From: Leptospirillum ferrooxidans C2-3
GTDB lineage: Bacteria > Nitrospirota > Leptospirillia > Leptospirillales > Leptospirillaceae
Reading direction: 5' to 3'
Assembly: GCF_000284315.1 (NCBI RefSeq)
Contig: NC_017094.1
Span: 1,085,486-1,149,485 of the forward strand
Length of the DNA: 64,000 nucleotides
Position numbers and translations under genes: made by a program. A model generated the notes under the pieces. That model was not told the origin of the DNA. It did no database searches and saw only the letters and a program-made list of their open reading frames with translations. Positions 1,207 to 13,444 of the stretch are shown here, one piece after another. Every line of letters begins with the position of its first letter. Within the stretch, counting starts at the first letter, position 1.

Positions 1207-1476
1207 ATGGTTCCCCACGCTTTATTGGTCAATCTGTTTGTCGGAAACTATGGTGAAAATTCCCAGATCACCGCATTTGCGAACAGCGTCGCCAATTTTG
1301 TTGTCTATGGTCTTGGCAGTTTTTTATTTGTTCTTGGAATGGCGAAAGCGGGTTTCGCCATGAAAAGTCATGACGCGGACGGCATCCGGCAGGGAGTGAT
1401 GACCATTGCCGGCGGTTCCTTGATGCTGATGTCCAAGTCCATATGGGAAACGTTGACCAATTGGTCGGGTTTTTAG
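1207..1476 (+). CDS. VirB2/TrbC-like pilin
   Basis: Small (89-residue) hydrophobic protein at the head of the secretion operon. Two membrane segments lie at about residues 24-48 and 62-80. They are separated by a short polar loop (KSHDADGIRQ) in the TrbC/VirB2 manner, where the second helix begins with a glycine-rich stretch (IAGGSLMLM). The open frame extends 53 codons upstream, but the ATG at 1207 is chosen because AAGGAGG sits 6 bases ahead and the sigma-54 promoter lies inside the upstream extension. VirB2 proteins polymerise into the pilus of type IV secretion systems. Assignment rests on topology plus gene order. No long cleavable signal peptide is evident, which is atypical. Confidence 0.65.
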   Translation: MVPHALLVNLFVGNYGENSQITAFANSVANFVVYGLGSFLFVLGMAKAGFAMKSHDADGIRQGVMTIAGGSLMLMSKSIWETLTNWSGF

Positions 1477-1835
1477 TGGATCCTGTCCGTATTTCCCGCA
1501 GTCTACTGTCTTCACCTTCTCTGGGGAGATTGCTGTTGCCGCAAGATCTGCTGGTTTTTATCGGACCACTTTTTCTGGGATTCGTTCTTCATCTGGATTT
1601 TTTTCTCGTCCTGATTTTCTTTATTCTCTCTTTTGGACTGATCCTTCATCTTCGGGGTTATGGAGAGGGTACCCTCCGGGGAATGACCTTTTTTTTCTTT
1701 TCGGAAAAAGCGCATTTGCCCGCTCTCCCGGACCCTTTTCGATCCGTGATTCTGGAAAGCTCGCAGGCGATCCTGAGAAGAGAAGAGGGTGTGTCTGAAA
1801 GAGAAGAGCCACTCCCGGAGATTCCATCGAAATGA
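1476..1835 (+). CDS. VirB3-like inner-membrane protein
   Basis: About 119 residues from a GTG at 1476 that shares one base with the preceding stop (TAGTG). An ATG at 1443 in the same frame would overlap virB2 more deeply. The protein has a hydrophobic double segment at about residues 23-56 and a charged C-terminal tail rich in Glu and Arg. Size, hairpin topology and the position between the pilin and the VirB4 ATPase all match VirB3, which associates with VirB4 at the inner membrane. Sequence similarity by eye is weak, so the call is mainly contextual. Confidence 0.55.
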   Translation: MDPVRISRSLLSSPSLGRLLLPQDLLVFIGPLFLGFVLHLDFFLVLIFFILSFGLILHLRGYGEGTLRGMTFFFFSEKAHLPALPDPFRSVILESSQAILRREEGVSEREEPLPEIPSK

Positions 1836-4339
1836 GGAATTCTCACAGACAGCTCAAGGGAACAGGTCATCCTGTTTCGTCCTCCTTTGATCTTTTGACA
1901 ATCGATCAGGATATCCTTTTGGGCGTTTCCGGACGGGGATCCCTGACATGGGCTTTATCCGGTGCGGATATTTTCATGAAATCGGACCCCGAGGTTTTTC
2001 AGGTTTACCGGGGAATTGAAAACTTGGCGCACCACCTTCCCTCGGGAATGGGACTTCAGCTTCGCATTCGCCAACAATCCGGAATCCCTCAAGAAAATCC
2101 TGAACTCATGCCGCCATGGGGATCGACCCTTTTGAAAGGAAGGGAGGATCAATCGTCTTCTGAAAATAGAATGTTCATCGAGGAGAGGATCAGGGACGCC
2201 TCCATTCGATTCCTCAGAAAAAGGGAGCTTTTTTTATCACTTGTCATTTATGGAGAAGAGACCAAAAAGCTTCTTGCTCCTTCATGGCACCCGATCCGGC
2301 AGATCTCTTCCATGTTTGGGGGCGATCTCATAGGCAAGTACGGGAAGACTGCCTCATCTCTCAGGAAGGCAGGAGCTCTTGTGGAAGCCATGCTCCCGGG
2401 GTGTGGTCTTTTGGGAAGGCGGATGATGGGGGATGAACTGGCCCGCTATCTTTTTACCCTGGCCAATCCCCTCTATAAGGGGGGGCTTCCCGATCAACTG
2501 CTTTCTGATTCCCGTCATTCCACTCTCCGCGAAAGGATCAGCCAGACGACCTTTTGGGAAAAAGAGGACGGAATCATTGCCGTTGATCCATCCGGTCTCA
2601 GGATGTCGGGGAAAATGCACGCATTGAGGCTTCTCCCGTTTGAAGTGGATCGGGAAACCCTTTCTCCTCTTCTTTTCGATCTGGACTTTTCCCATGACCT
2701 GGTCATGAATATCTGGAAACCCGCCCATGAGAAACTGGCGAAGAAGGTTCAGTCCGATGCGACGATCAATCGGTTCCTGACCTATATCCTGCCCGGACGA
2801 TCGTATCGGATTGAATCGGACATTTCGTCTGCGGAGGAGTTTCTCACCAGATCCTTCGACGGACCTGCCGAATCGAGGGTACCGCTTGTGATCAACATGT
2901 GCATCGGGGTCTGGTCCCGGGACGAAGCGGAGGCGGTTTCCAGAGGAGAGCAGATCACCCAGTGCTTTGCCGCCATGAATGGGGCGATGGCTGGAGTTGA
3001 TCCCTATCGGCAGTGGCCCCTTTTCCTTTCAGGCTTGCCGCTGGAAGGGGATGCCAATGATCGGTGGGAGGGTCTCCTTTCCCGGGAGTTTTCGAGATTG
3101 TTTCCTGTATGGGATGGGTCCGTGTGCGATCCCGATCCATGGTTCTGGGGAAAAAATCATCTTTCGGAGTGCGCCGGGCTCAACTTCTGGCGGCCCCAGG
3201 ACCCAAACCACAATGGACTGGTCGTCGGCCGGTCCGGCGGGGGGAAATCCTTTGCCATCAAGATGCTGGTCGGGCAGTTTTTGGTCCACTCCGGGGAACA
3301 TCAGGTCATTGTCGTGGAAAATGGTGGGGATTTTGAAAGGCATTGCGAGTATTTCGAGGGAGATTATGTCCGGATCGATCTGAGCGGACAATACTCCCTG
3401 AATCCGTTTCCAACCCGTCACTTCATTATGATGTCCGTTGGGCCCCCAAGGGAATATGATCCCGACCTTTTGGGTTTTTTATGCGGTGTTGTGGAGACAT
3501 TCCTGGCCTCTTCGATGGAGGTGACAAGCCTCCATCGAAGAATCCTGACGCTTTGCCTTGAGGAGGTCTATGACCAACTCCCCGGAGATGATGTCCGTCC
3601 GGTCCTTTCGCATCTTGTCCGGGAGCTTTTCCGGTTCAGGGGAAGGGACAGGGAGGATGAGGAGACCGGTTATCGCATGGGGAAAATCCTGGAGTCGTGG
3701 GTCGGCGGAATGTATGGTCCATTGCTGAACAGCGGAGAAGGCATATCCACCTCCGGGCGCCTCTTGGCCTTCGACCTTTCAGGTCTTGAGCATCATGAGC
3801 CACTCAAGGCTGTTGTGTTTGCCTATATTGCCGGCCTGTCCCTCTGGAGGCTTCTTTCCGGTTCCGGAGAAAAGCGGCTTTTTCTGGTCTTTGATGAAGC
3901 CCATCGCATTCTGGCCCATCTCCGGGGAACCTCGTTCCTCTCCCATCTGTACCGGACCGTCCGCAAATATGGTGGCGGGGTGATTGCCATCAGTCAGTCT
4001 CCGGAGGATTTTCTGGGAGAGGATCTTTCCGCCGGCATTTTAAACAACACTTCCTGGAAATGGATCTTTCCGGTCTCGAGCAAGGAAGAGGATCTTCTGG
4101 CGTTTGGATTGACGGCCAGGGAGATTGAACTTCTTTCCACACTGGATTCCCGTCCCGGTGATTTTTCGGAGGTTCTTTTTTCGAGGCAGGGACAGTCGAT
4201 GATTCTCCGGCTTGAGCCGAGTCTTCTGGAGTACTGGCTTTCCGCGAAATCTCCGGAAGAGGATCGGGTTGTCAAAGAGCGTGTTCTGGAAACCGGTGGA
4301 CTCAAGGAAGCCTTGAAAAGTCTTTTGGAGGAGAGATGA
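1832..4339 (+). CDS. VirB4/TraC-family type IV secretion ATPase
   Basis: An 835-residue AAA-type ATPase that powers substrate or pilin movement at the inner membrane in type IV secretion systems. The ATG overlaps the previous stop as ATGA. Walker A reads VGRSGGGKSFAIK at about residues 465-477. Walker B reads LFLVFDEAHRIL at about 683-694. They are followed by the conserved YRTVRKYGGG and AISQSPEDF stretches typical of VirB4/TraC. The roughly 450-residue N-terminal part is the usual VirB3-interacting region, and the length is normal for the family. This is the most securely recognised component and anchors the operon as a type IV secretion locus. Confidence 0.93.
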   Translation: MRNSHRQLKGTGHPVSSSFDLLTIDQDILLGVSGRGSLTWALSGADIFMKSDPEVFQVYRGIENLAHHLPSGMGLQLRIRQQSGIPQENPELMPPWGSTLLKGREDQSSSENRMFIEERIRDASIRFLRKRELFLSLVIYGEETKKLLAPSWHPIRQISSMFGGDLIGKYGKTASSLRKAGALVEAMLPGCGLLGRRMMGDELARYLFTLANPLYKGGLPDQLLSDSRHSTLRERISQTTFWEKEDGIIAVDPSGLRMSGKMHALRLLPFEVDRETLSPLLFDLDFSHDLVMNIWKPAHEKLAKKVQSDATINRFLTYILPGRSYRIESDISSAEEFLTRSFDGPAESRVPLVINMCIGVWSRDEAEAVSRGEQITQCFAAMNGAMAGVDPYRQWPLFLSGLPLEGDANDRWEGLLSREFSRLFPVWDGSVCDPDPWFWGKNHLSECAGLNFWRPQDPNHNGLVVGRSGGGKSFAIKMLVGQFLVHSGEHQVIVVENGGDFERHCEYFEGDYVRIDLSGQYSLNPFPTRHFIMMSVGPPREYDPDLLGFLCGVVETFLASSMEVTSLHRRILTLCLEEVYDQLPGDDVRPVLSHLVRELFRFRGRDREDEETGYRMGKILESWVGGMYGPLLNSGEGISTSGRLLAFDLSGLEHHEPLKAVVFAYIAGLSLWRLLSGSGEKRLFLVFDEAHRILAHLRGTSFLSHLYRTVRKYGGGVIAISQSPEDFLGEDLSAGILNNTSWKWIFPVSSKEEDLLAFGLTAREIELLSTLDSRPGDFSEVLFSRQGQSMILRLEPSLLEYWLSAKSPEEDRVVKERVLETGGLKEALKSLLEER

Positions 4340-4923
4340 AATCAGGAACCATCAAAAGGCGATGTTTGCTGATTTTCCTCCTTTTCCTGTCTTTTCCTCA
4401 TCCGGCCTATGCCGTCATGGGCTCAAACACGTTGATCGAAAGCAGGATCCTTTGGGTTGAAAGCCAGACGAGATCAACTCTTTCCCGTCTCAGGAACTTT
4501 ATTTTTGAGAAAAATCAGGGGCAGGATTTTCTGAATGCACCGGCTCTTCCACCTTCCATTCCTGTGACGGCCGCTCCGGCCAGTCCACCATCTGTTTCTC
4601 AAATCAGTCGCTCTGCAAGTGAAGGGATGGGAGCGGCACTCGGAGGGATCGCCTCCGCTCCAGGCCAGGAAGCCATCGGACAGGGGATCCATCAGATGGC
4701 CTATTCCTCGAGTCCGGAAGGGGCTCTCCGACTGGGTGCCGATACACAGGGACACATTTTCCAGATGCTCCTGTCGATTCATCAGGATCTTCTCTATCTC
4801 CTGAAAGAGCAGTCTTCCACGACGGGGCTCGAGGGAGCGATTCTCGACCATTCCCATAATGCAAACCTTGAGGACCAGCAGACGATCCGTCAGGATCTTC
4901 CCCGCTGGATCATGATGCGCTGA
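4336..4923 (+). CDS. Secreted protein in the VirB5/TrbJ position
   Basis: A 195-residue protein whose ATG overlaps the virB4 stop by four bases. It has a clear signal peptide (hydrophobic core LLIFLLFLSFP, cleavage near AYA/V at about residue 26). The mature part contains a Pro/Ala/Ser-rich linker (about 67-95), then predicted helices ending in DLPRWIMMR. VirB5 and TrbJ proteins are periplasmic, helical minor pilus components encoded exactly here, between VirB4 and VirB6. No VirB5 motif can be recognised by eye, so the function is positional inference. Confidence 0.5.
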   Translation: MKSGTIKRRCLLIFLLFLSFPHPAYAVMGSNTLIESRILWVESQTRSTLSRLRNFIFEKNQGQDFLNAPALPPSIPVTAAPASPPSVSQISRSASEGMGAALGGIASAPGQEAIGQGIHQMAYSSSPEGALRLGADTQGHIFQMLLSIHQDLLYLLKEQSSTTGLEGAILDHSHNANLEDQQTIRQDLPRWIMMR

Positions 4924-6161
4924 TGGGACAGGGTGGATGCCAGGGGACTCCCGGACAGGAAGGAATCTTGTTATTCCAGGATTCGACGACCATTCCCTGC
5001 GTCCTTTCCCCTGTTCATGACCAGGTGCTTCTTGTGGCGCGGGTCCTTTTGATGATGACGATTCCCATTGCCACACTGATGTTGTGGGGAAAGCTCCGGG
5101 ACGGGAAACCCATTTTCGGGAATCTCGTCCAGATCGTGCTGGTTTTTATGGTCATGATCGGATATGCCATGTTTTTCACCGATGGCGTCTCTCTTGTGGG
5201 AGCCATTGCCGATCGACTTTACCCCAGTAATCTGATTCTGGATTTTTATGAAACGATCTGGTCCCAAAACCTGATTCCCGGGAAAGTGGGCTCTTTTGTC
5301 AGCATTCTCTCCGATCCGATGGGGATCATCTATATCCTTCTCCTGGATCTTCTGAAGGTTCTGGTGTTTTTGTTCACTCTTGTCCGATATGCGCTTCTGT
5401 CTTTCCTGTATGTGATTGGCCCGCTTCTATGTGCTGTTGCGGTAATACCGGGAATGTTCTTTTTGCTCGCCCAATGGGCGAGAAACACCCTTGAAGTCGC
5501 GATGTGGCTTCTTCTCCACAATATTTTCATTGCGATATTTGCCTCGATCAGTCTCTATCAGGCCCTGAATCCCGCAGGTCCCATGACCGCATTCGGAAAC
5601 CGCGTGCTGTCGATCGGCGTGATCCTGGTTCTGGTGATGATGTTTCTCTTTGTGCCCATCCTGACCCATCTTCTGATGGACAAGTCTTACGAGGGGATCG
5701 GTTCGTTTGTCGGTCCCCAGGCTTCCATGGCCGGTAAAAGGATGCTGGAAGAAAGTGTTCTCCGTCCATTGGTCAAGGGCGAACTTCCTTTCGGGGTGGG
5801 TGAAATGAAGATTGGAAAGGTTGAAAAAGATATCGGTCAGGGGCGAAGAGTCTATAAAAAAAGTCAATTGAGGCTTGGTCCCTATACCTTTACCTCTCTT
5901 TTGTGGAACCGGAAACCAAAGGATGAGAGCGCTTCCGGGGAGGCCACAAAAGCCCCGAAAACCCGAAAGAGCGCCAAAAAAACCACACTGGCAGACGGAG
6001 ATGCCGGGGCTGCCCAGGTGAAAACCCGGTCTTCCCGGACAGCCGCAAAACCCAGAGCGGCCAGAAAGGTTGCCGTTTCTTCCACTCCTGATGAGATTTT
6101 GCCGGAAAAGCCCAAAGCCAGAAAGAAAAAAGTGGTTTCTCCGCCAGAGCCCGCTTCATGA
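4923..6161 (+). CDS. VirB6/TrbL-family polytopic membrane protein with long basic tail
   Basis: A 412-residue protein sharing one base with the previous stop (TGATG). Several hydrophobic segments lie between about residues 35 and 255, including the runs around LARVLLMMTIPIAT, VLVFMVMIGYAMFF, LLSFLYVIGPLLCAVAV and VILVLVMMFLFVPI. The central large loop and topology fit VirB6/TrbL, which forms the inner-membrane channel. The last 80 or so residues are very different, made almost entirely of Lys, Arg, Ala, Pro, Ser and Thr (for example KTRKSAKK and KPKARKKK) and resembling a histone-H1-like tail. This tail is not standard for the family. Confidence 0.75.
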   Translation: MGQGGCQGTPGQEGILLFQDSTTIPCVLSPVHDQVLLVARVLLMMTIPIATLMLWGKLRDGKPIFGNLVQIVLVFMVMIGYAMFFTDGVSLVGAIADRLYPSNLILDFYETIWSQNLIPGKVGSFVSILSDPMGIIYILLLDLLKVLVFLFTLVRYALLSFLYVIGPLLCAVAVIPGMFFLLAQWARNTLEVAMWLLLHNIFIAIFASISLYQALNPAGPMTAFGNRVLSIGVILVLVMMFLFVPILTHLLMDKSYEGIGSFVGPQASMAGKRMLEESVLRPLVKGELPFGVGEMKIGKVEKDIGQGRRVYKKSQLRLGPYTFTSLLWNRKPKDESASGEATKAPKTRKSAKKTTLADGDAGAAQVKTRSSRTAAKPRAARKVAVSSTPDEILPEKPKARKKKVVSPPEPAS

Positions 6162-6835
6162 AGAATCTCTTGTTTGGCCGGGATCATTCCGGAGAGATGG
6201 CTCCGCCTCCCGGAATGGACCGGATCCTGGAACTTGAGCGACGCATTCAAATGGGGAGCCGCCTTTTCTGGGCGCTGGTTTTTGCAGACATTCTGGGGAT
6301 GCTCCTGATTTTCTGGTATGTCCCGAGCCGAACACTCGTCGTGGGCCTTTCAAAAGAAGGAGAGATGGTGAGACTTCCTGAAATCCAAATGCCTCCTGAC
6401 GAACGATCTGAAGCGGTCCTTGCCGCTTTTTCAAGGGGATTTTTGAATAATCTCGCCGCGTATGATGCGTTTGAGGAGCCATACCGGCTCAAAAAGGCTT
6501 TTTCGAAGATGACGCCGGAGCTCAGGAAATCCCTTGGCTCAGAGCTCTCGAAGAATCATTTTATGGAAAGTATTACGGGATCGAGACTCCGGTCCACTCT
6601 CGATGTTCGCGGGATCCGGTCCAAAAAAGTGGCTCCGGGGGTTTTTTCGGTGCGGGCTTTTTGCGTGAGACATGTCCGATCCTATGACGACCAGCAATTT
6701 TTGAGGGATGACCTCCTGAAGACCAGAATGGTGATCAGGGCAGGGGGGCCCACTCCGGAAAATCCTTATGGACTGTGGGTCTCATCCTATGCGGAAGAGT
6801 CCCTCGACAAACCTTCAACCTCCGGTCGACCATGA
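6158..6835 (+). CDS. VirB8/TraE-like inner-membrane scaffold protein
   Basis: A 225-residue bitopic protein overlapping virB6 by four bases. A short cytoplasmic N-terminus is followed by one membrane helix (about residues 38-55, LFWALVFADILGMLLIFWYV). The periplasmic domain of about 165 residues holds a helical part and a strand-rich end (VFSVRAFCVRHVRSY, LLKTRMVIRAGG, YGLWVSSYAEE). This is the VirB8/TraE layout, a dimerising scaffold that links VirB6, VirB9 and VirB10. The call combines topology, size and operon position. A single periplasmic Cys is present. Confidence 0.7.
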   Translation: MKNLLFGRDHSGEMAPPPGMDRILELERRIQMGSRLFWALVFADILGMLLIFWYVPSRTLVVGLSKEGEMVRLPEIQMPPDERSEAVLAAFSRGFLNNLAAYDAFEEPYRLKKAFSKMTPELRKSLGSELSKNHFMESITGSRLRSTLDVRGIRSKKVAPGVFSVRAFCVRHVRSYDDQQFLRDDLLKTRMVIRAGGPTPENPYGLWVSSYAEESLDKPSTSGRP

Positions 6836-7905
6836 ACAGGATGTTTCTCTCCGGCTTTCTGGTGTCATTGATTGTCATCACCATTCCCCTGGTCTGGCTG
6901 ATCGATGCACGATCGTCTTCGAGAGTTCTTCCCACTCCTCCGGTCGCTGTTCCCGAGGCCAGAACGACCTTTTCCCTCCCGGTTGAGCCACCTGCTCCGG
7001 TCCATGCGACGCCGGTTACAGAAGCCGATCCTTCCGACAACATTGTCATGGTCAAGAAGCTTCCGGAAAAGGTGATTCCTCCCGAGGAAAGCTCCGGGGA
7101 GGTTCGGGACAGGGCTCCCATCCGGACCCTCGTGTATGATGCGAGCCGTCTTTACACCCTCCGCACAGCCCTTTCCCATGTCACGATCGTCGATCTTCCG
7201 GAGGATGCCCGCGAGGTTTATGTCGGGGATTCCAAACTCTTTCTGGCGGAGGTCTTGGGTTCCAGAATCAAGGTGAAGCCCATTACATACGATCTGAAAA
7301 GCCGAACGAACATGATTGTCTACACAGAACATGATCGCCTGTCCTTCAGGCTTCTGGTCGTTCCTCCCGGAGAGGAGGACGACCTTCTGAGCTTTCGCCT
7401 TCCGAAAAGTGAAACAGTCGTCAACCTGAATCCGATCAAGACCGTTCTTCGGAAAAAGTTAAAGGAAGAGGAGAGTCAGGACCTTTCGATGAAAAGACGG
7501 GATTTTTTAAAGGAAGGAGATCCTCAGCATCCTCTTAGGGCGACCTTCCACGCGGACAAGCTTTTGGTCCGTCTTCTGGGATTTTCCTCACTGGATCAAA
7601 ATCAGTATGCCGTCATCGACTGCAGAAACGACTCTGGACATGACGTGACACTCAGACGGATCCGGCTTCGACGATTTCAGAAGTCCCTTTTGTGGGAGAC
7701 GAGCCGCCATTATGAGGATGGGATGGACTGGTCGAGAGATCTGGACAAGACCGTTCCGGCAGGACAACACGTACGTCTTCTTCTTGAGGTTGGCAAGATC
7801 ACTCCGCTTTCCCAACGGGAAGGACTCTTTTTGTCGGGAAGGGTCCGGACGTCCGGCGGCGGAGAAATAGCGATAAAGGCGGTTTCTGCGGGAGAAAGGC
7901 TTTGA
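6832..7905 (+). CDS. VirB9/TrbG-family outer-membrane-complex protein
   Basis: A 357-residue exported protein. The ATG at 6832 overlaps the virB8 stop and is preferred over an in-frame ATG 57 bases upstream. An N-terminal hydrophobic segment (about 5-22) is followed by a Pro-rich region. Next comes a domain with the VirB9-type strand pattern LYTLRTALSHVTIVDLPEDA ... SRTNMIVYTEHDRLSFRLLV at about residues 103-183. A C-terminal beta-domain follows (about 230-355). VirB9 lines the outer-membrane core complex together with VirB7 and VirB10. Confidence 0.75.
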   Translation: MNRMFLSGFLVSLIVITIPLVWLIDARSSSRVLPTPPVAVPEARTTFSLPVEPPAPVHATPVTEADPSDNIVMVKKLPEKVIPPEESSGEVRDRAPIRTLVYDASRLYTLRTALSHVTIVDLPEDAREVYVGDSKLFLAEVLGSRIKVKPITYDLKSRTNMIVYTEHDRLSFRLLVVPPGEEDDLLSFRLPKSETVVNLNPIKTVLRKKLKEEESQDLSMKRRDFLKEGDPQHPLRATFHADKLLVRLLGFSSLDQNQYAVIDCRNDSGHDVTLRRIRLRRFQKSLLWETSRHYEDGMDWSRDLDKTVPAGQHVRLLLEVGKITPLSQREGLFLSGRVRTSGGGEIAIKAVSAGERL

Positions 7906-8858
7906 ACAGGATTGTTTTGCTGGTTGTAACGGCAGTGGCTGGTGTTGTTCTGTCCCTTTTTTATGGCCAGTCGGGAAAACATGATCACCGGGAGCAGCGG
8001 GCGGATCATTCATGGACAAGCGGACAGGAGGGGGGAAGAGTTCTGGATTCCCGGACGTCATGGCAAAATCTTCCTTCTGTGATCCATCCGGGATCCTTCG
8101 GAATGGGGCGAGACTCCCAGGGGGGGAAATCCGGCGAGGGTCACGAGCTCAATACCAGAAGTACCATTTATGTTGATGGCACAGGGAGTCCGGTTGGGGA
8201 TCCCCAGGGGGAGGGAAACATGTTTGGTCTCCTGGGTCCGCTCATCAGTGGAGCAGGACAATCCCTGGCGCTTGCCAGAAAAGCTTCCGGGCAAAAAGGA
8301 GTCGCTCCCGGACCGACGGTCCCCGCGGGGACGATTCTCAGGGGGCGGGTCATGAGACGCTTTGACGGTCCTTCGGGGGGAGCTCCCATTTTTGTCCTGA
8401 TTCCACCCCAGACGGCCGGCCCCATCCCAATCGCCCATTCGTTGAAGATTATGGGATATCCGGTGGGGCTTTCTCCTGAAAATCGGCTCATGATGCGATT
8501 TATGCGGGTGATCTACGGCAATGGTCTGGAGGCCCAGATGACGGGGTATGCGATGCAGGGGGGGCGGGAGGGTGTTCCTGTCGATGTCTCCCGCCATCCG
8601 GGCAGCCAGTTTGCCGGATCGGTCGCGCAAAACACCCTCATGATGGGTGGCAATGCGATTGGATATATGGGGTATGGCAACGCCGGAATCGGCTCGGATC
8701 TGGCCATGCAGGAAGCGGGGGCGGTTGTCGGGTCGAGCCAGTCGGTCATGCCGGTGCCAAACCAGCAGACAACCTACACCCTTTCTGCGGGGGCTCCTGT
8801 TTCCATCATGATCATCCATGGATTTCCTCCGTCGGTCTCCCAGTCGGATCCAAAATGA
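7902..8858 (+). CDS. VirB10/TrbI-like core-complex protein
   Basis: A 318-residue protein starting at TTG within a TTGA overlap with virB9. There is one N-terminal membrane helix (about 4-20), then a low-complexity, Gly/Ser/His-rich spacer to about residue 105. The C-terminal beta domain (VPAGTILRGRVMRRFDGPSG..., about residues 141 onward) resembles VirB10/TrbI, in which a PAGT-type strand opens the barrel domain. A Gly/Met-rich stretch (MMGGNAIGYMGYGNAG) may form the outer-membrane antenna. It ends in a Pro-rich segment. VirB10 senses ATPase energy and gates the outer-membrane channel. The protein is somewhat shorter than typical VirB10. Confidence 0.7.
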   Translation: MNRIVLLVVTAVAGVVLSLFYGQSGKHDHREQRADHSWTSGQEGGRVLDSRTSWQNLPSVIHPGSFGMGRDSQGGKSGEGHELNTRSTIYVDGTGSPVGDPQGEGNMFGLLGPLISGAGQSLALARKASGQKGVAPGPTVPAGTILRGRVMRRFDGPSGGAPIFVLIPPQTAGPIPIAHSLKIMGYPVGLSPENRLMMRFMRVIYGNGLEAQMTGYAMQGGREGVPVDVSRHPGSQFAGSVAQNTLMMGGNAIGYMGYGNAGIGSDLAMQEAGAVVGSSQSVMPVPNQQTTYTLSAGAPVSIMIIHGFPPSVSQSDPK

Positions 8859-9751
8859 TCGATGGTCCGGAAAGGCTTTGCCAGGATCGCCTGGACCGGC
8901 TCCTGCATTCACTTTCCCGGATAGAATCCCGGATGAATGAGGGATTCGGAGAGCGGGAAGAGGTGATCAGAAACTGCATTCTGGCCCTTTTGGCGAATGA
9001 GCATGTCTATCTGATCGGTCCCCCTGGAACGGCAAAAAGTCTTATCATCAGAACGTTTTCCGGTTTTTTTGAACATATTTCACTCTATGAGACGCTTTTG
9101 CATGGCGACTCGCATCTATCCGATCTTCTTGTTCCGACTCTTTCGGGGAAAAGTCTTCTTTCCTGCCAGATCGTCTTTCTGGACGAGGTCTTTCGTGCTC
9201 CGAGAGATCTTCTCCTGGGGCTTCTGTCCTTCATGAACGAACGACGGTTCTACCATCCGGATCCCGTTCCTGTCCCGCTTATGAGTCTTTTTGGAGCGAG
9301 TAATCAAAGTCCGTCTCCGGCAGATGGGCTTGAGGCTTTTTATGACCGATTCACCTATCGTTGCATTTTGCGTCCGATGGAATCCCGGGAGCGTTTCTTT
9401 CAGATGATTTTCCAGTCGGGAGATTTTTGGGAAAGGATGACTGATGGATATGAGGATGGAGGGTTTCTTCCGGACTTTTTCTCCCTGATCCCGGGGCTTG
9501 CCAGAATGAGGCTCCCATGGGAAGCGGAGACGCGGGACGGTTTATTTGAACTTCGTCGTTCCCTTGGAAACGAGGGGGTTTTCATCTCCGATCGAAGATG
9601 GAAAAAAGTGGTTCTGGCGGCAACGGTCAATGCCCTGTACGAGGGGGCATCGTCTGTTTTGCCGAACCATCTGTCAGGACTGAAAAATGTGTTATGGAGC
9701 TATCCCACCGAGATTCGTCCGATCGAACGGATTCTGTCCTCCTATCGATAG
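8855..9751 (+). CDS. RavA-type MoxR AAA+ ATPase linked to the secretion operon
   Basis: A 298-residue AAA+ ATPase whose ATG overlaps the virB10 stop (ATGA). It shows the RavA-subgroup signature: Walker A GPPGTAKS (about residues 53-60), Walker B IVFLDEVFRAP (about 106-116), the RavA-like helix LLSFMNERRF, sensor-1 LFGASNQSP, and the Arg-finger segment LEAFYDRF. RavA ATPases normally carry an additional LARA/C-terminal region and act with a VWA-domain partner (ViaA). Here the protein is short and no VWA gene follows. MoxR ATPases act as chaperone-like assembly factors. The position suggests it services this secretion machine, possibly where VirB11 would otherwise be encoded; that is inference. 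Confidence 0.85.
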   Translation: MIDGPERLCQDRLDRLLHSLSRIESRMNEGFGEREEVIRNCILALLANEHVYLIGPPGTAKSLIIRTFSGFFEHISLYETLLHGDSHLSDLLVPTLSGKSLLSCQIVFLDEVFRAPRDLLLGLLSFMNERRFYHPDPVPVPLMSLFGASNQSPSPADGLEAFYDRFTYRCILRPMESRERFFQMIFQSGDFWERMTDGYEDGGFLPDFFSLIPGLARMRLPWEAETRDGLFELRRSLGNEGVFISDRRWKKVVLAATVNALYEGASSVLPNHLSGLKNVLWSYPTEIRPIERILSSYR

Positions 9752-10011: not shown

Positions 10012-10992
10012 ATGGGCGACGTTGCCCTTCACGATCAATTTTTCAAGGCCACTTTGGGGCGAACCGGATCTTTTTCCCGTCTTCTGAAAGGATTTCTCCC
10101 CCCCGATATCGTCCGAAGTCTCGACTTCGCCTCCCTTCGCCCCATTCCGACCGAGTCGGTTGATGACGCTCTGGAGCGCTCCTTTATGGATCTGGCCTTC
10201 TCCGCCCGTCTGTCGGGAACGGAAACCCGGATCTATCTTCTGGTCGAGCACAAGAGCTCTCCCGACTCGGAGACCTTCCTTGGGCTGTTGCGGTACATGC
10301 TGGCTCTCTGGACGCGGGACCGCAAAGATGGGCGCCCCCTGACGCCAGTCCTTCCGCTCGTCTTCCATCATGGAAAGCAGCGATGGAACCTTCCACGGCG
10401 TTTTGCCGACTTCATGAAAACCCCGGAGGTCCTGCAATCCATCGCCCTGGACTTCGCGCCGGAGGTGCTCGACGTGGGCCCGATCCCGGATGAGAAGATC
10501 CGGGAAGCCATCGGGGACCCCGACACCCTCGTGCCGATCCTGGCCTTGAAACATATTTTCGGAAGTCTTGAGGAGGCCCTCGTTTCCGTCCTTCCTCTTT
10601 TCCGTTCCATTGAGGCGAATGGAACGCAGGTTGTGTTAAACTATCTTCTCGGATGCCATGGAATCGACAATCCGGAGACCTTGAAAAAAATCTCGGAAAA
10701 ACTGGTCAAGGAGGAACACATGCCCAATGTTGTCGATATTCTGATTGAGGAAGGATTGCAGAAAGGACTGCAGAAAGGACTGCGGGAAGGTCTGCAGAAA
10801 GGGCTTCAGGAAGGGCTTCAGAAAGGCCAGCGGGATGCTGTCGTCAAACTCCTTGAAAAGGAGGTTTTGACACCCGACCAGATCGCATCGGCCCTTGATC
10901 TGGATCTTTCCCGGATTCTCGAAATCCAGGAGGGAATCGACCGGAGGTCATTTTCCGGGGGGCAAGGTCGAGGCCAACTTCCGGGGACCTGA
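10012..10992 (+). CDS. Rpn-family recombination-promoting nuclease / PD-(D/E)XK putative transposase
   Basis: A 326-residue member of the Rpn (YhgA-like) family. The N-terminal domain begins HDQFFKATLG, as in the family (a D-x-x-FK motif). The nuclease core shows a D-x(n)-EHKS motif (LVEHKSSPDSETFLGLLRYM at about residues 79-98), typical of the PD-(D/E)XK fold. E. coli Rpn proteins are known as DNA endonucleases that promote RecA-independent recombination. Residues 247-274 are seven tandem (E/K)GL(Q/R) units, followed by a helical end LLEKEVLTPDQIASALDLDL. AAAGGAG precedes the ATG. The gene is often mobile or variable among strains, consistent with its position beside the secretion operon. 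Confidence 0.88.
   Translation: MGDVALHDQFFKATLGRTGSFSRLLKGFLPPDIVRSLDFASLRPIPTESVDDALERSFMDLAFSARLSGTETRIYLLVEHKSSPDSETFLGLLRYMLALWTRDRKDGRPLTPVLPLVFHHGKQRWNLPRRFADFMKTPEVLQSIALDFAPEVLDVGPIPDEKIREAIGDPDTLVPILALKHIFGSLEEALVSVLPLFRSIEANGTQVVLNYLLGCHGIDNPETLKKISEKLVKEEHMPNVVDILIEEGLQKGLQKGLREGLQKGLQEGLQKGQRDAVVKLLEKEVLTPDQIASALDLDLSRILEIQEGIDRRSFSGGQGRGQLPGT
10750..10833 (+). repeat. Seven tandem 12-bp units inside the Rpn gene
   Basis: Codon-phased units encode E/K-G-L-Q/R (for example AAAGGACTGCAG). They are degenerate mainly at third positions, except the last unit, which reads KGQR. Because the unit is 12 bp, copy-number slippage keeps the frame. Such (K/E)GLQ tracts are common near the C-terminus of Rpn-family proteins. 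Confidence 0.9.
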
Positions 10993-11116: not shown

Positions 11117-13444
11117 ATGGAGCCATCCTGGCTTCCCCTTGCCGCTGAACTGACAGGGGACCCCATCATGATGGATGGGTTTCTCGATTTCTACGAGGAT
11201 CGTCCGGAAGGATCTCCACTCAGAAAACGGCTGGAGGAGACTCTTTTCAACGAACGGGCACTTCGTTCCCATCTTATGGGAGAACTGGCGCTCTTCCACA
11301 GACTGCTGAATACTCTTCCCCCTTCCTCCTTTGCCTCCTATGCCGATCTTCTGGCCGAACGATTTCCCGAAGAAGCAGGGAAGGGGACCAATCCCATCTG
11401 CCGCGTTCTTTCGGTGATCGATCCCGAACGTGCCGCGAAACTCTTTGCTCGTTTCATCGAAGACGCTTCCCCGACGGACACGCGGGTCCTTCGACAGATC
11501 GCGGAGACCCTTCTTCTTCTGCCCGGGCCGGCGGCAAATTCTCTCCTGGAGCAGATCCTCAGCCGGAGCCCATCCTCCGAAGTTCTTTTATCTCTTTTGC
11601 GGGTGGCTTTCCACTTCGAACACGCGAAGACTCCGGGAATTCTTGCCGCTATAATGGTTGCTGACGAAGGAGGAGGTGATCCCTTTGGATCCATCGCCAG
11701 TATTCTTCTGGATCACGATGCCTGGTTCGATCTTTTTTCGGAAATCCGGAGCGGAAGAGTTTTCTCGTTTTCCGAAGTGGCTGGCCTGTTCGAAGACGAC
11801 GCTCCTTTTTCGGAGATGGATCGGATCCTTCTTTCGGAGAGTCCCTTGAACGAAGCGATTGCCCTTCTGGAAAAACACGCCCATCTTTCGGCCGGACCAA
11901 GAGAGATCCTGAAAGCGCTTCCGGAAGACCGGTCGCGCCTGTCCGAAAGCATTGTCGAACCGATGTTCGCCCTGATATTGGCCGCAGTCGCCCACATCTT
12001 CGAGCGAAAAACCCTCGATACGAGGAATCTTTCCCTTGAAGAGACGATCTCTCTTCTGATCACAGATATCTCCAGAAACCGGCATGTCGAAGCGCTCTCA
12101 GAGCATCTTAGGGAATTCCCGGCGATAGAGGTTCTCCATGCCATGGAAGGGGCGATAGACGAGGTCAGGGATCTCTATGGAGGATTCTTTCTGGTTCAGG
12201 CCATGGGGGTTCTCGCCCGGGAAGAATTCATCCCCCTTCTGATCTCCTGCATGGATGACTCCTCGGGAGACGCTCTCTCCGAGGCTGCCATGGATGCCCT
12301 GATCGCGATCGGAGAGAGAGCGGGAAATACGCTCATGACCGAATGGAACACCCTGGACTCTTCTCAGCAGATCTACGGAAGTTCGGTGATTTTATCCGTT
12401 GGAGGAAAGGATCTGCCGGACTTCCTTCTGGCACACATCGACGATCTGTACGAAGAGTCCATGGAGCAATGGTGCGACATGGCCCTGGCCTCAGCTGACC
12501 AGAGGTTCCTTTCGCACCTGAAGTCCGAACTTAAGCGGAAAAACCCATTTGTCAATGCGGCCTACTATCGGCTGTGCCGACTTTTCGGGGTCGAGGACCC
12601 GGAACTCCCGAAAATCAGGGAAGGTATCGAAGCGGAGCAGAAACGGATTAAAAAGATCTTCTCGAAAGATTTCTCCGGAAATCTCATGGATCCGGAGAAG
12701 TCCTCTCTGACCGTTTCCCTTCGATGTCAAAGTTGCGGAAAGTCAAACCCTTACACCGTGAACAGGGTCTTTATTGGGGACAAGAGCGACGCGCCGCTGA
12801 TATCAGGGGAGTTTGTCTGCCTGTCCTGCGACCGGTGGAGTGAATTCGATCTCGACTCAAACGGGATTTTTTGCCTGACCGCCGAAATGATGAGGATCTC
12901 GATGGCCCATGAGAGCGGGGTCAGGATCACTCCGCTGGTGGATGTTCTGAACACTGTGACCTCCGATGGTCTCACCGAGCCGCTCCCGAAAGCGTTCAGA
13001 AGGGTGAAGGAAAGAATCCGGGAAAGCCCCGGTGACTGGCACTCTCTTCATCGTCTGAGCAACCTTCTGATTGCCCTCGATCGTCCCCGTGCCGCGTTTG
13101 ATTGCACAGCCCGTGCCTATGAACTGAATCCGGATTGTCTCGAGATCGTCATTAACCGCATTCTCTCCCTTCGGAAGCGGGGAATGGAACAAGAGGCTTT
13201 CGCTCTGGCCCAAGATGCTTTGGAAAACCGCTCGCGGTGGATGTTCGTTTCCCCGAGCATGAAAACGAGACATCAGGAGTTTGAAGATCTTTACAACGAA
13301 CTGATTTCCTCCCTGGACCTTGATCTACCGGAAATTCGCCTTGTCGCCCAGGCTCTGCCGTCTTCCTTGGGGTGGAACAAGGTCGGCAGAAACGATCCTT
13401 GTCCCTGCGGAAGCGGGAAGAAATATAAAAAATGCTGTCTCTGA
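11117..13444 (+). CDS. Large helical-repeat protein with zinc-ribbon-like and SEC-C domains
   Basis: A 775-residue protein. Residues 1 to about 500 are repetitive, leucine-rich helical hairpins suggestive of HEAT-type repeats. Around 535-573 are two CxxC pairs (CQSC and CLSC) about 33 residues apart, compatible with a zinc ribbon. A TPR-like helical part follows (about 640-720). The end GRNDPCPCGSGKKYKKCC is a complete SEC-C motif, the zinc-binding tail also found on SecA. No catalytic motif is seen. SEC-C proteins with helical repeats are largely uncharacterised, and the domain suggests protein or ribosome binding. An ATG at 11117 is used; the upstream GGAAAGG is a plausible ribosome site. 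Confidence 0.75.
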   Translation: MEPSWLPLAAELTGDPIMMDGFLDFYEDRPEGSPLRKRLEETLFNERALRSHLMGELALFHRLLNTLPPSSFASYADLLAERFPEEAGKGTNPICRVLSVIDPERAAKLFARFIEDASPTDTRVLRQIAETLLLLPGPAANSLLEQILSRSPSSEVLLSLLRVAFHFEHAKTPGILAAIMVADEGGGDPFGSIASILLDHDAWFDLFSEIRSGRVFSFSEVAGLFEDDAPFSEMDRILLSESPLNEAIALLEKHAHLSAGPREILKALPEDRSRLSESIVEPMFALILAAVAHIFERKTLDTRNLSLEETISLLITDISRNRHVEALSEHLREFPAIEVLHAMEGAIDEVRDLYGGFFLVQAMGVLAREEFIPLLISCMDDSSGDALSEAAMDALIAIGERAGNTLMTEWNTLDSSQQIYGSSVILSVGGKDLPDFLLAHIDDLYEESMEQWCDMALASADQRFLSHLKSELKRKNPFVNAAYYRLCRLFGVEDPELPKIREGIEAEQKRIKKIFSKDFSGNLMDPEKSSLTVSLRCQSCGKSNPYTVNRVFIGDKSDAPLISGEFVCLSCDRWSEFDLDSNGIFCLTAEMMRISMAHESGVRITPLVDVLNTVTSDGLTEPLPKAFRRVKERIRESPGDWHSLHRLSNLLIALDRPRAAFDCTARAYELNPDCLEIVINRILSLRKRGMEQEAFALAQDALENRSRWMFVSPSMKTRHQEFEDLYNELISSLDLDLPEIRLVAQALPSSLGWNKVGRNDPCPCGSGKKYKKCCL

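Follow-up and report, generated by a model that had tools for sequence, protein, structure and literature searches.

What kind of type IV secretion system (T4SS) ends in a RavA/MoxR-type AAA+ ATPase, and what is that ATPase for? The question is raised by an operon at positions 1207-9751 of a 64,000-nucleotide stretch of Leptospirillum ferrooxidans C2-3 (contig NC_017094.1, positions 1,085,486 to 1,149,485), the whole of which is referred to here as the window. A first-pass annotation, made without database searches, had read nine overlapping genes as VirB2, VirB3, VirB4, a protein in the VirB5 position, VirB6, VirB8, VirB9, VirB10 and a MoxR ATPase whose start overlaps the virB10 stop. All of this held: every ORF lies where it had been placed, and virB2 opens at the annotated first coordinate with an ATG at 1207, preceded by AAGGAGG. 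The gene calls were corrected at virB10, whose start codon is TTG. The parts are as follows.

1207-1476, plus strand: virB2-like pilin, 89 aa, without a leader peptide (PF04956 3e-7, over the cut-off)
1443-1835, plus strand: small membrane protein in the virB3 position, 130 aa (two predicted TM helices, position)
1832-4339, plus strand: virB4 ATPase, 835 aa, nearest to F-type TraC (PF19044, TIGR02746, PDB 4ag5)
4336-4923, plus strand: VirB5-position protein, 195 aa, largely helical, with a signal-peptide-like N-terminus (kept in 14 genomes)
4923-6161, plus strand: virB6-like polytopic membrane protein of 412 aa, its C-terminal tail rich in Lys and Arg (about six TM segments)
6158-6835, plus strand: virB8, 225 aa (structural match of the model, Foldseek against PDB)
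6832-7905, plus strand: virB9, 357 aa (CagX, TIGR02781, PDB TrwF)
7902-8858, plus strand: virB10, 318 aa, TTG start (TrbI, single N-terminal TM)
8855-9751, plus strand: RavA/MoxR AAA+ ATPase, 298 aa, consisting of the AAA+ core and lid only (PF20030, AAA_5, AAA_lid_8, PDB RavA)

Neighboring ORFs overlap by 34 bases (virB2/virB3), 1 base (VirB5-position gene/virB6) or 4 bases (every other junction); the 4-base overlap of virB10 with the ATPase gene is also that of most relatives.

The locus meets the criterion for a VirB-type T4SS, which is VirB4 together with VirB8, VirB9 and VirB10 homologues in one place, although VirB9 and VirB10 score below curated cut-offs; their matches are consistent across the family. 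VirB4 matches PF19044 (7e-22) and the PDB VirB4 structure 4ag5 (6e-21). Its best NCBIfam model is TraC-F (TIGR02746, 1e-42), at 146 bits against a cut-off of 567 and so below it. The model PF03135 (CagE_TrbE_VirB) misses this VirB4, and no claim of absence made here rests on it. VirB8 has no match by sequence; its AlphaFold model (mean pLDDT 74) matches the R388 T4SS complex (5e-7) and Agrobacterium VirB8 (3e-6) in a Foldseek search of the PDB, and further structural matches are TrwG, DotI, TraE and CagV. VirB9 finds CagX (4e-7, below the gathering score) and the VirB9 model TIGR02781 (8e-7, below cut-off), and its family profile finds TrwF in the PDB (0.005). VirB10 finds TrbI at a sub-threshold 1e-4 in the window; the same match appears in 7 of 11 family members, always weakly (best 4.5e-6).

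The remaining components are less securely named. The VirB2 match, although above the curated cut-off, covers only model positions 34-98. None of the 14 VirB2 sequences has a leader peptide, and in each genome a Shine-Dalgarno-like sequence directly precedes the start, which lies at about the mature-pilin position. No other protein of the operon is as conserved as VirB2 (mean column identity 90%, versus 71% for VirB4). A surface pilin would not be expected to be leaderless and so conserved, and we have no explanation for these features. No Pfam or NCBIfam profile matches VirB3, whose gene sits between virB2 and virB4 and overlaps both, and VirB6 has only a weak match (0.004) to the Bacteroidetes TraJ model TIGR03782; both names are inferred from sequence alone, by position and membrane topology. 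The VirB6 tail (about 90 aa) is poorly conserved in sequence and always Lys/Arg-rich, resembling histone H1; in each of the 14 genomes its 22-34 K+R outnumber 7-16 D+E. Its composition suggests binding of nucleic acid or of acidic proteins, again a sequence-based inference. The VirB5-position protein has no recognizable homologue in Pfam, NCBIfam or PDB searches, and its model is helical but of low confidence (pLDDT 55), too poor for a fold search.

The ninth protein belongs to the MoxR/RavA AAA+ family, for which a AAA+ core, a RavA-type lid and intact nucleotide motifs were required and found. PF20030 (9e-25), AAA_5 (4e-13) and AAA_lid_8 (5e-10) all score above their cut-offs, and the match to RavA in the PDB (2.5e-47) spans RavA residues 9-292 of 500. 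Walker A (GPPGTAKS), Walker B (VFLDE) and the ASN, DRF and SDRRW positions, the sensor and arginine residues included, are kept in the 10 genomes with a complete ATPase sequence, except that one Walker A has a changed proline. It is not RavA proper, which would require the C-terminal LARA/triple-helix region: the protein ends after the lid, and the RavA model NF010054 gives 118 bits against a cut-off of 681, over model positions 7-291 of 498. The LARA region is what lets RavA bind LdcI.

MoxR proteins generally act together with VWA cofactors, and as a rule a partner with a VWA domain is encoded near them (PMC3893208). The ATPase described here does not follow that rule, as far as two models can tell. 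The first-pass annotation had noted that no VWA protein is encoded beside the operon; this held, and neither PF13519 (VWA_2) nor PF05762 (VWA_CoxE) matched in any of 21 Leptospirillaceae genomes, the two models being positive in 12 of 14 and 8 of 14 control genomes.

VirB11, VirD4, VirB1 and VirB7 were not seen in the operon, nor was a relaxase (the relatives' genomes lay outside the relaxase search). It had been claimed that VirB11, a coupling protein and a relaxase are missing up to the point where unrelated genes begin, and for the locus this held. Finding virB11, virD4 and a relaxase elsewhere in the same element would have refuted the reading. The window genome (2.56 Mb, a single contig, only one VirB4) does contain TrwB-type type IV coupling proteins (T4CPs) at 363 and 544 kb, with a TrwC relaxase (about 545 kb) next to the latter, but these lie in other elements, 540-720 kb from the operon, and T4CPs are confined to 3 of the 21 genomes. 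The T4CP models PF02534 and PF12696 found nothing in the other 18, including three near-complete relatives (G004, G006 and G008, 95-99% complete), so that VirD4 is missing genome-wide there and the refutation was not realized. In these three the sole protein of the VirB11/PilT/PilB superfamily (PF00437) is GspE-like; in G006 its gene lies beside those for GspD, GspF and GspG. Judged by them, the VirB11 ATPase that defines the MPF_T class is not present, and the conjugative type of T4SS, defined by a coupling protein accompanying the system, is not met either. PilO, secretin and T2SSE-type (pilus) ATPase genes also lie near the T4CPs of the window genome. The regions concerned, at 353-373 and 532-572 kb (L084:11918-16302, L085 and L081:8549-10612), hold T4CP, TrwC, PilO, secretin and ATPase genes and could conceivably be elements that borrow the chromosomal T4SS. 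ComEC was detected in 18 and DprA in 17 of the 21 Leptospirillaceae genomes (10 and 11 of the 14 controls).

VirB4 relatives occur in 15 of the 21 genomes, the window genome included, at one locus each and with 43-85% identity. These loci occupy one syntenic place on the chromosome and show the same nine-gene order wherever the locus is long enough, across five genera and with most proteins only roughly 30-60% identical. Several genera have in common the divergent upstream flank (a gene resembling 3-hydroxyisobutyrate dehydrogenase and one for a MacB-type ABC transporter) and the downstream flank (a HemN-like radical SAM gene), and the site is therefore fixed. Compared with the nearest relative, all nine genes have dN/dS values of 0.03-0.18, indicative of purifying selection; together with the order conserved across five genera, this excludes chance. 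All six genomes in which the locus is missing are 64-80% complete. Since about four absences are expected from the summed incompleteness of the genomes, against six observed, the locus probably belongs to the core genome or comes close to it. A scan of 84,980 genomes for VirB4, using two short peptide patterns and hence of limited recall, returned only 14 loci, all from Leptospirillum/Nitrospirae, and no relative was found in the viral contigs searched. A conjugative island was considered and rejected, given the fixed synteny and the absence of a T4CP.

Two local departures from the common layout were seen. Only in the window genome do two extra genes separate the operon from the conserved downstream genes, one (10012-10992) for a PF04754 protein (Transposase_31, YhgA/Rpn-like) and one (11117-13444) for a large protein with a SEC-C-like motif at its C-terminus; both are probably recent insertions. 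The closest relative (G001) has a 1.6 kb insertion between virB8 and virB9 (L026, 13748-15391 when read in operon orientation).

The pairing of virB10 with the ATPase gene is conserved in related genomes, which is the second point on which the first-pass reading could have failed. The ATPase gene lies directly 3' of virB10 in all 13 genomes in which it was detected. Eleven loci carry virB10 and the ATPase gene on the same contig, and the junction, scored with start codons chosen by script, is a 4-base overlap in ten of them and a 2-base gap in one; in two further genomes virB10 and the ATPase gene are on another contig and meet at ATGA or GTGA. In the other two genomes with a VirB4, where no ATPase was detected, the contigs stop inside the operon. 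No Leptospirillaceae genome has a second strong copy, and the ATPase is missing from all six genomes that lack VirB4. Adjacency and overlap persist at about 43% identity. Divergence of the ATPase tracks that of VirB4 (r 0.98), as it does for all other genes of the operon, a correlation that common descent alone would produce within one operon. Among 296 sampled Nitrospirota genomes, only those of the Leptospirillaceae gave a match to this MoxR subtype at E<=1e-15. Plasmid relatives of the ATPase are below 33% identity; of two records inspected, one match lies beside viaA and the other on a Listeria resistance plasmid, and neither adjoins T4SS genes.

Gene content, gene order, overlap coupling and the single-copy co-occurrence of the ATPase with the operon are thus shown. 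On this basis we interpret the locus as a core T4SS of the Leptospirillaceae, fixed in the chromosome and inherited vertically, in which a MoxR ATPase without a VWA partner serves as a dedicated ninth component. We regard this as likely, a grading that applies only to the dedicated-module part of the statement. The first-pass suggestion of a dedicated assembly or energizing factor is supported by the pairing; the actual role of the MoxR protein remains an inference, as there is no physical or genetic evidence that it contacts the machine. The accompanying description, a non-canonical ATPase set, also held, through the presence of MoxR and not through the missing VirB11, because VirB11 is often absent from T4SSs, with many conjugative systems lacking it (PMC13395361), and because this VirB4 is nearest to F-type TraC. 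The ATPase gene occupies the exact slot of virB11 in VirB operons, so to say that MoxR replaces VirB11 is a positional statement, and replacement is not shown. MoxR may instead have been added to a lineage that had no VirB11, a possibility raised by the TraC-like VirB4, the number of VirB11-less systems and the Myxococcus plasmid pYRE, whose related T4SS has a T4CP but neither an annotated VirB11 nor, in the 26 kb scanned, a MoxR match.

In the mechanism we propose, VirB3, VirB4, VirB6, VirB8 and VirB10 would form the inner-membrane complex, VirB9 and VirB10 the outer part, and VirB4 would provide the energy for secretion. A hexameric MoxR ring, unaided by a VWA adaptor, would sit where VirB4/VirB6/VirB8 face the cytoplasm and would either load, extract or reset VirB2 subunits or remodel the VirB4 complex, the task of VirB11 in VirB and ComB systems. 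There is no coupling protein, and export of cytoplasmic substrates, DNA included, is therefore unlikely; ordinary conjugation is likewise probably not what the machine is used for. It would most likely build a VirB2 (pseudo)pilus. As its use we prefer DNA import of the ComB kind, which would bring environmental DNA into the periplasm and leave the rest to ComEC and DprA. This leading guess rests on analogy, DNA uptake being untested, and we hold it more likely to be wrong than right. The pointers toward it (ComEC/DprA, no PilB/PilT-type ATPase found beside the GspE-like one in the three near-complete relatives, the VirB6 tail) are each weak alone. Against it, ComEC and DprA also occur in many bacteria and hardly favor importing DNA, ComB has no counterpart to the VirB5-position protein, and the other pilus ATPases and secretins of the window genome could serve competence. 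A bolder reading, that a VWA-independent MoxR/RavA ring took over the VirB11 role and powers VirB2 dynamics for DNA import, making the machine an independently evolved counterpart of ComB in an extreme acidophile, is unlikely but cannot be excluded.

The substrate of the machine is unproven, and an adhesive pilus is nearly as likely as DNA import. This rival, which we consider possible, holds that a VirD4-less T4SS makes VirB2 filaments for attachment to mineral or biofilm, with MoxR as a pilin-assembly chaperone. Bartonella Trw, a VirD4-less system, is the natural comparison. In its favor are the absence of a coupling protein from the near-complete relatives, the rank of VirB2 as the most conserved protein (90% mean column identity), and the retention in 14 genomes of a secreted-looking protein in the VirB5 position, the usual place of a pilus-tip protein. 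Against it, surface pilins usually diversify, and this VirB2 hardly does and is leaderless; the Lys/Arg-rich VirB6 tail would also have no obvious role.

The other rivals fare worse. That separate mobile elements, supplying their own coupling protein and relaxase, conjugate through this chromosomal apparatus is unlikely. It would account for a genome in which a single VirB4 stands alongside a TrwC relaxase and two T4CPs of TrwB type, and T4SS genes of L. ferriphilum have been annotated as conjugative (PMC4223469, PMC5880901); however, T4CPs occur in just 3 of 21 genomes, against a family-wide machine at a fixed site, and the operon is not inside an element. Ptl-like export of an unidentified protein from the periplasm is also unlikely: VirD4-less T4SSs that export periplasmic substrates exist, and the periplasm-spanning VirB8, VirB9 and VirB10 are present, but the conserved neighborhood offers no candidate substrate gene. 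That the ATPase is an unrelated passenger on the operon promoter, working elsewhere as, for example, a respiratory-complex chaperone in the manner of RavA, which acts with ViaA on such complexes (PMC3893208), is compatible with the lack of demonstrated contact with the T4SS but is improbable given that no ViaA/VWA protein was found in the family (two models), that overlap or adjacency holds in 13 of 13 genomes at about 43% identity, and that no copy lies outside the locus.

In the open-access literature searched, an incomplete library, we found no paper tying a MoxR/RavA ATPase to a T4SS and, among work on T4SSs or competence in Leptospirillum, no description of this system; in the earlier papers on the genus that were consulted (PMC4223469, PMC5880901), T4SS genes figure solely as conjugative or Dot/Icm-like ones. 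A MoxR protein conserved across a bacterial family without a VWA protein found (two models), and tied to one multiprotein membrane machine, is a clean case for adaptor-free client engagement by MoxR rings and for the minimal form of the VirB11 task. Should DNA import prove correct, ComB would gain a second T4SS-based transformation system at its side, with possible consequences for recombination among the Leptospirillum of acid mines.

Compared with known systems, the operon shares with VirB/VirD4 (MPF_T) the order B2-B3-B4-(B5)-B6-B8-B9-B10 followed by an ATPase gene, and differs in lacking VirB11, VirD4, VirB1 and VirB7. With F-type (MPF_F) systems, which are also without VirB11, it shares a VirB4 that scores best against the TraC-F model; the score is below the TraC cut-off, the VirB2-VirB10 order is of VirB type, and no TraF, TraH, TraN, TraU or TraW was seen in the operon (they were not sought by their own profiles). 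The nearest VirB4 in the plasmid collection (24% identity, 2e-32) is that of pYRE from Myxococcus stipitatus, where VirB8 and VirB9 relatives follow VirB4 in the same order. The relation is distant, and pYRE differs in having a TraM-recognition coupling protein and in being plasmid-borne; no MoxR ATPase match was found in the 26 kb scanned. Near the pYRE set (L144, 17858-30731) lie the genes for the coupling protein, for a protein kinase and for a topoisomerase; the plasmid is typed as non-mobilizable, and its T4SS looks undescribed. E. coli RavA aligns with the ATPase over the AAA+ core and lid, with intact motifs, and differs in being a protein of about 500 aa with a LARA region, against 298 aa without one; the operon ATPase has no ViaA/VWA partner that we could find and is embedded in a T4SS operon.

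The closest functional parallel we can offer is ComB of Helicobacter pylori, a VirD4-less T4SS that imports DNA and whose VirB4 is partnered by the hexameric ATPase ComB11/HP1421 (PMC13395361). ComB includes VirB7, has a true VirB11 whose gene lies elsewhere, and lacks VirB5; the Leptospirillum operon has a VirB5-position protein, no VirB7 that we could see and, in the gene position of a VirB11-family partner such as ComB11, a MoxR ATPase within the operon. The ComB-type setting of no VirD4, no type IV pilus (T4P) machinery and ComEC present is not met in the window genome, with its other pilus ATPases, secretins and T4CPs, and is met in G004, G006 and G008, which also have DprA. The essential partner ATPase of the ComB VirB4 was itself reported only in 2026 (PMC13395361). 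Both systems are chromosomal core machines built from VirB2, VirB3, VirB4, VirB6, VirB8, VirB9 and VirB10, without VirB1 or VirD4, in cells that have ComEC.
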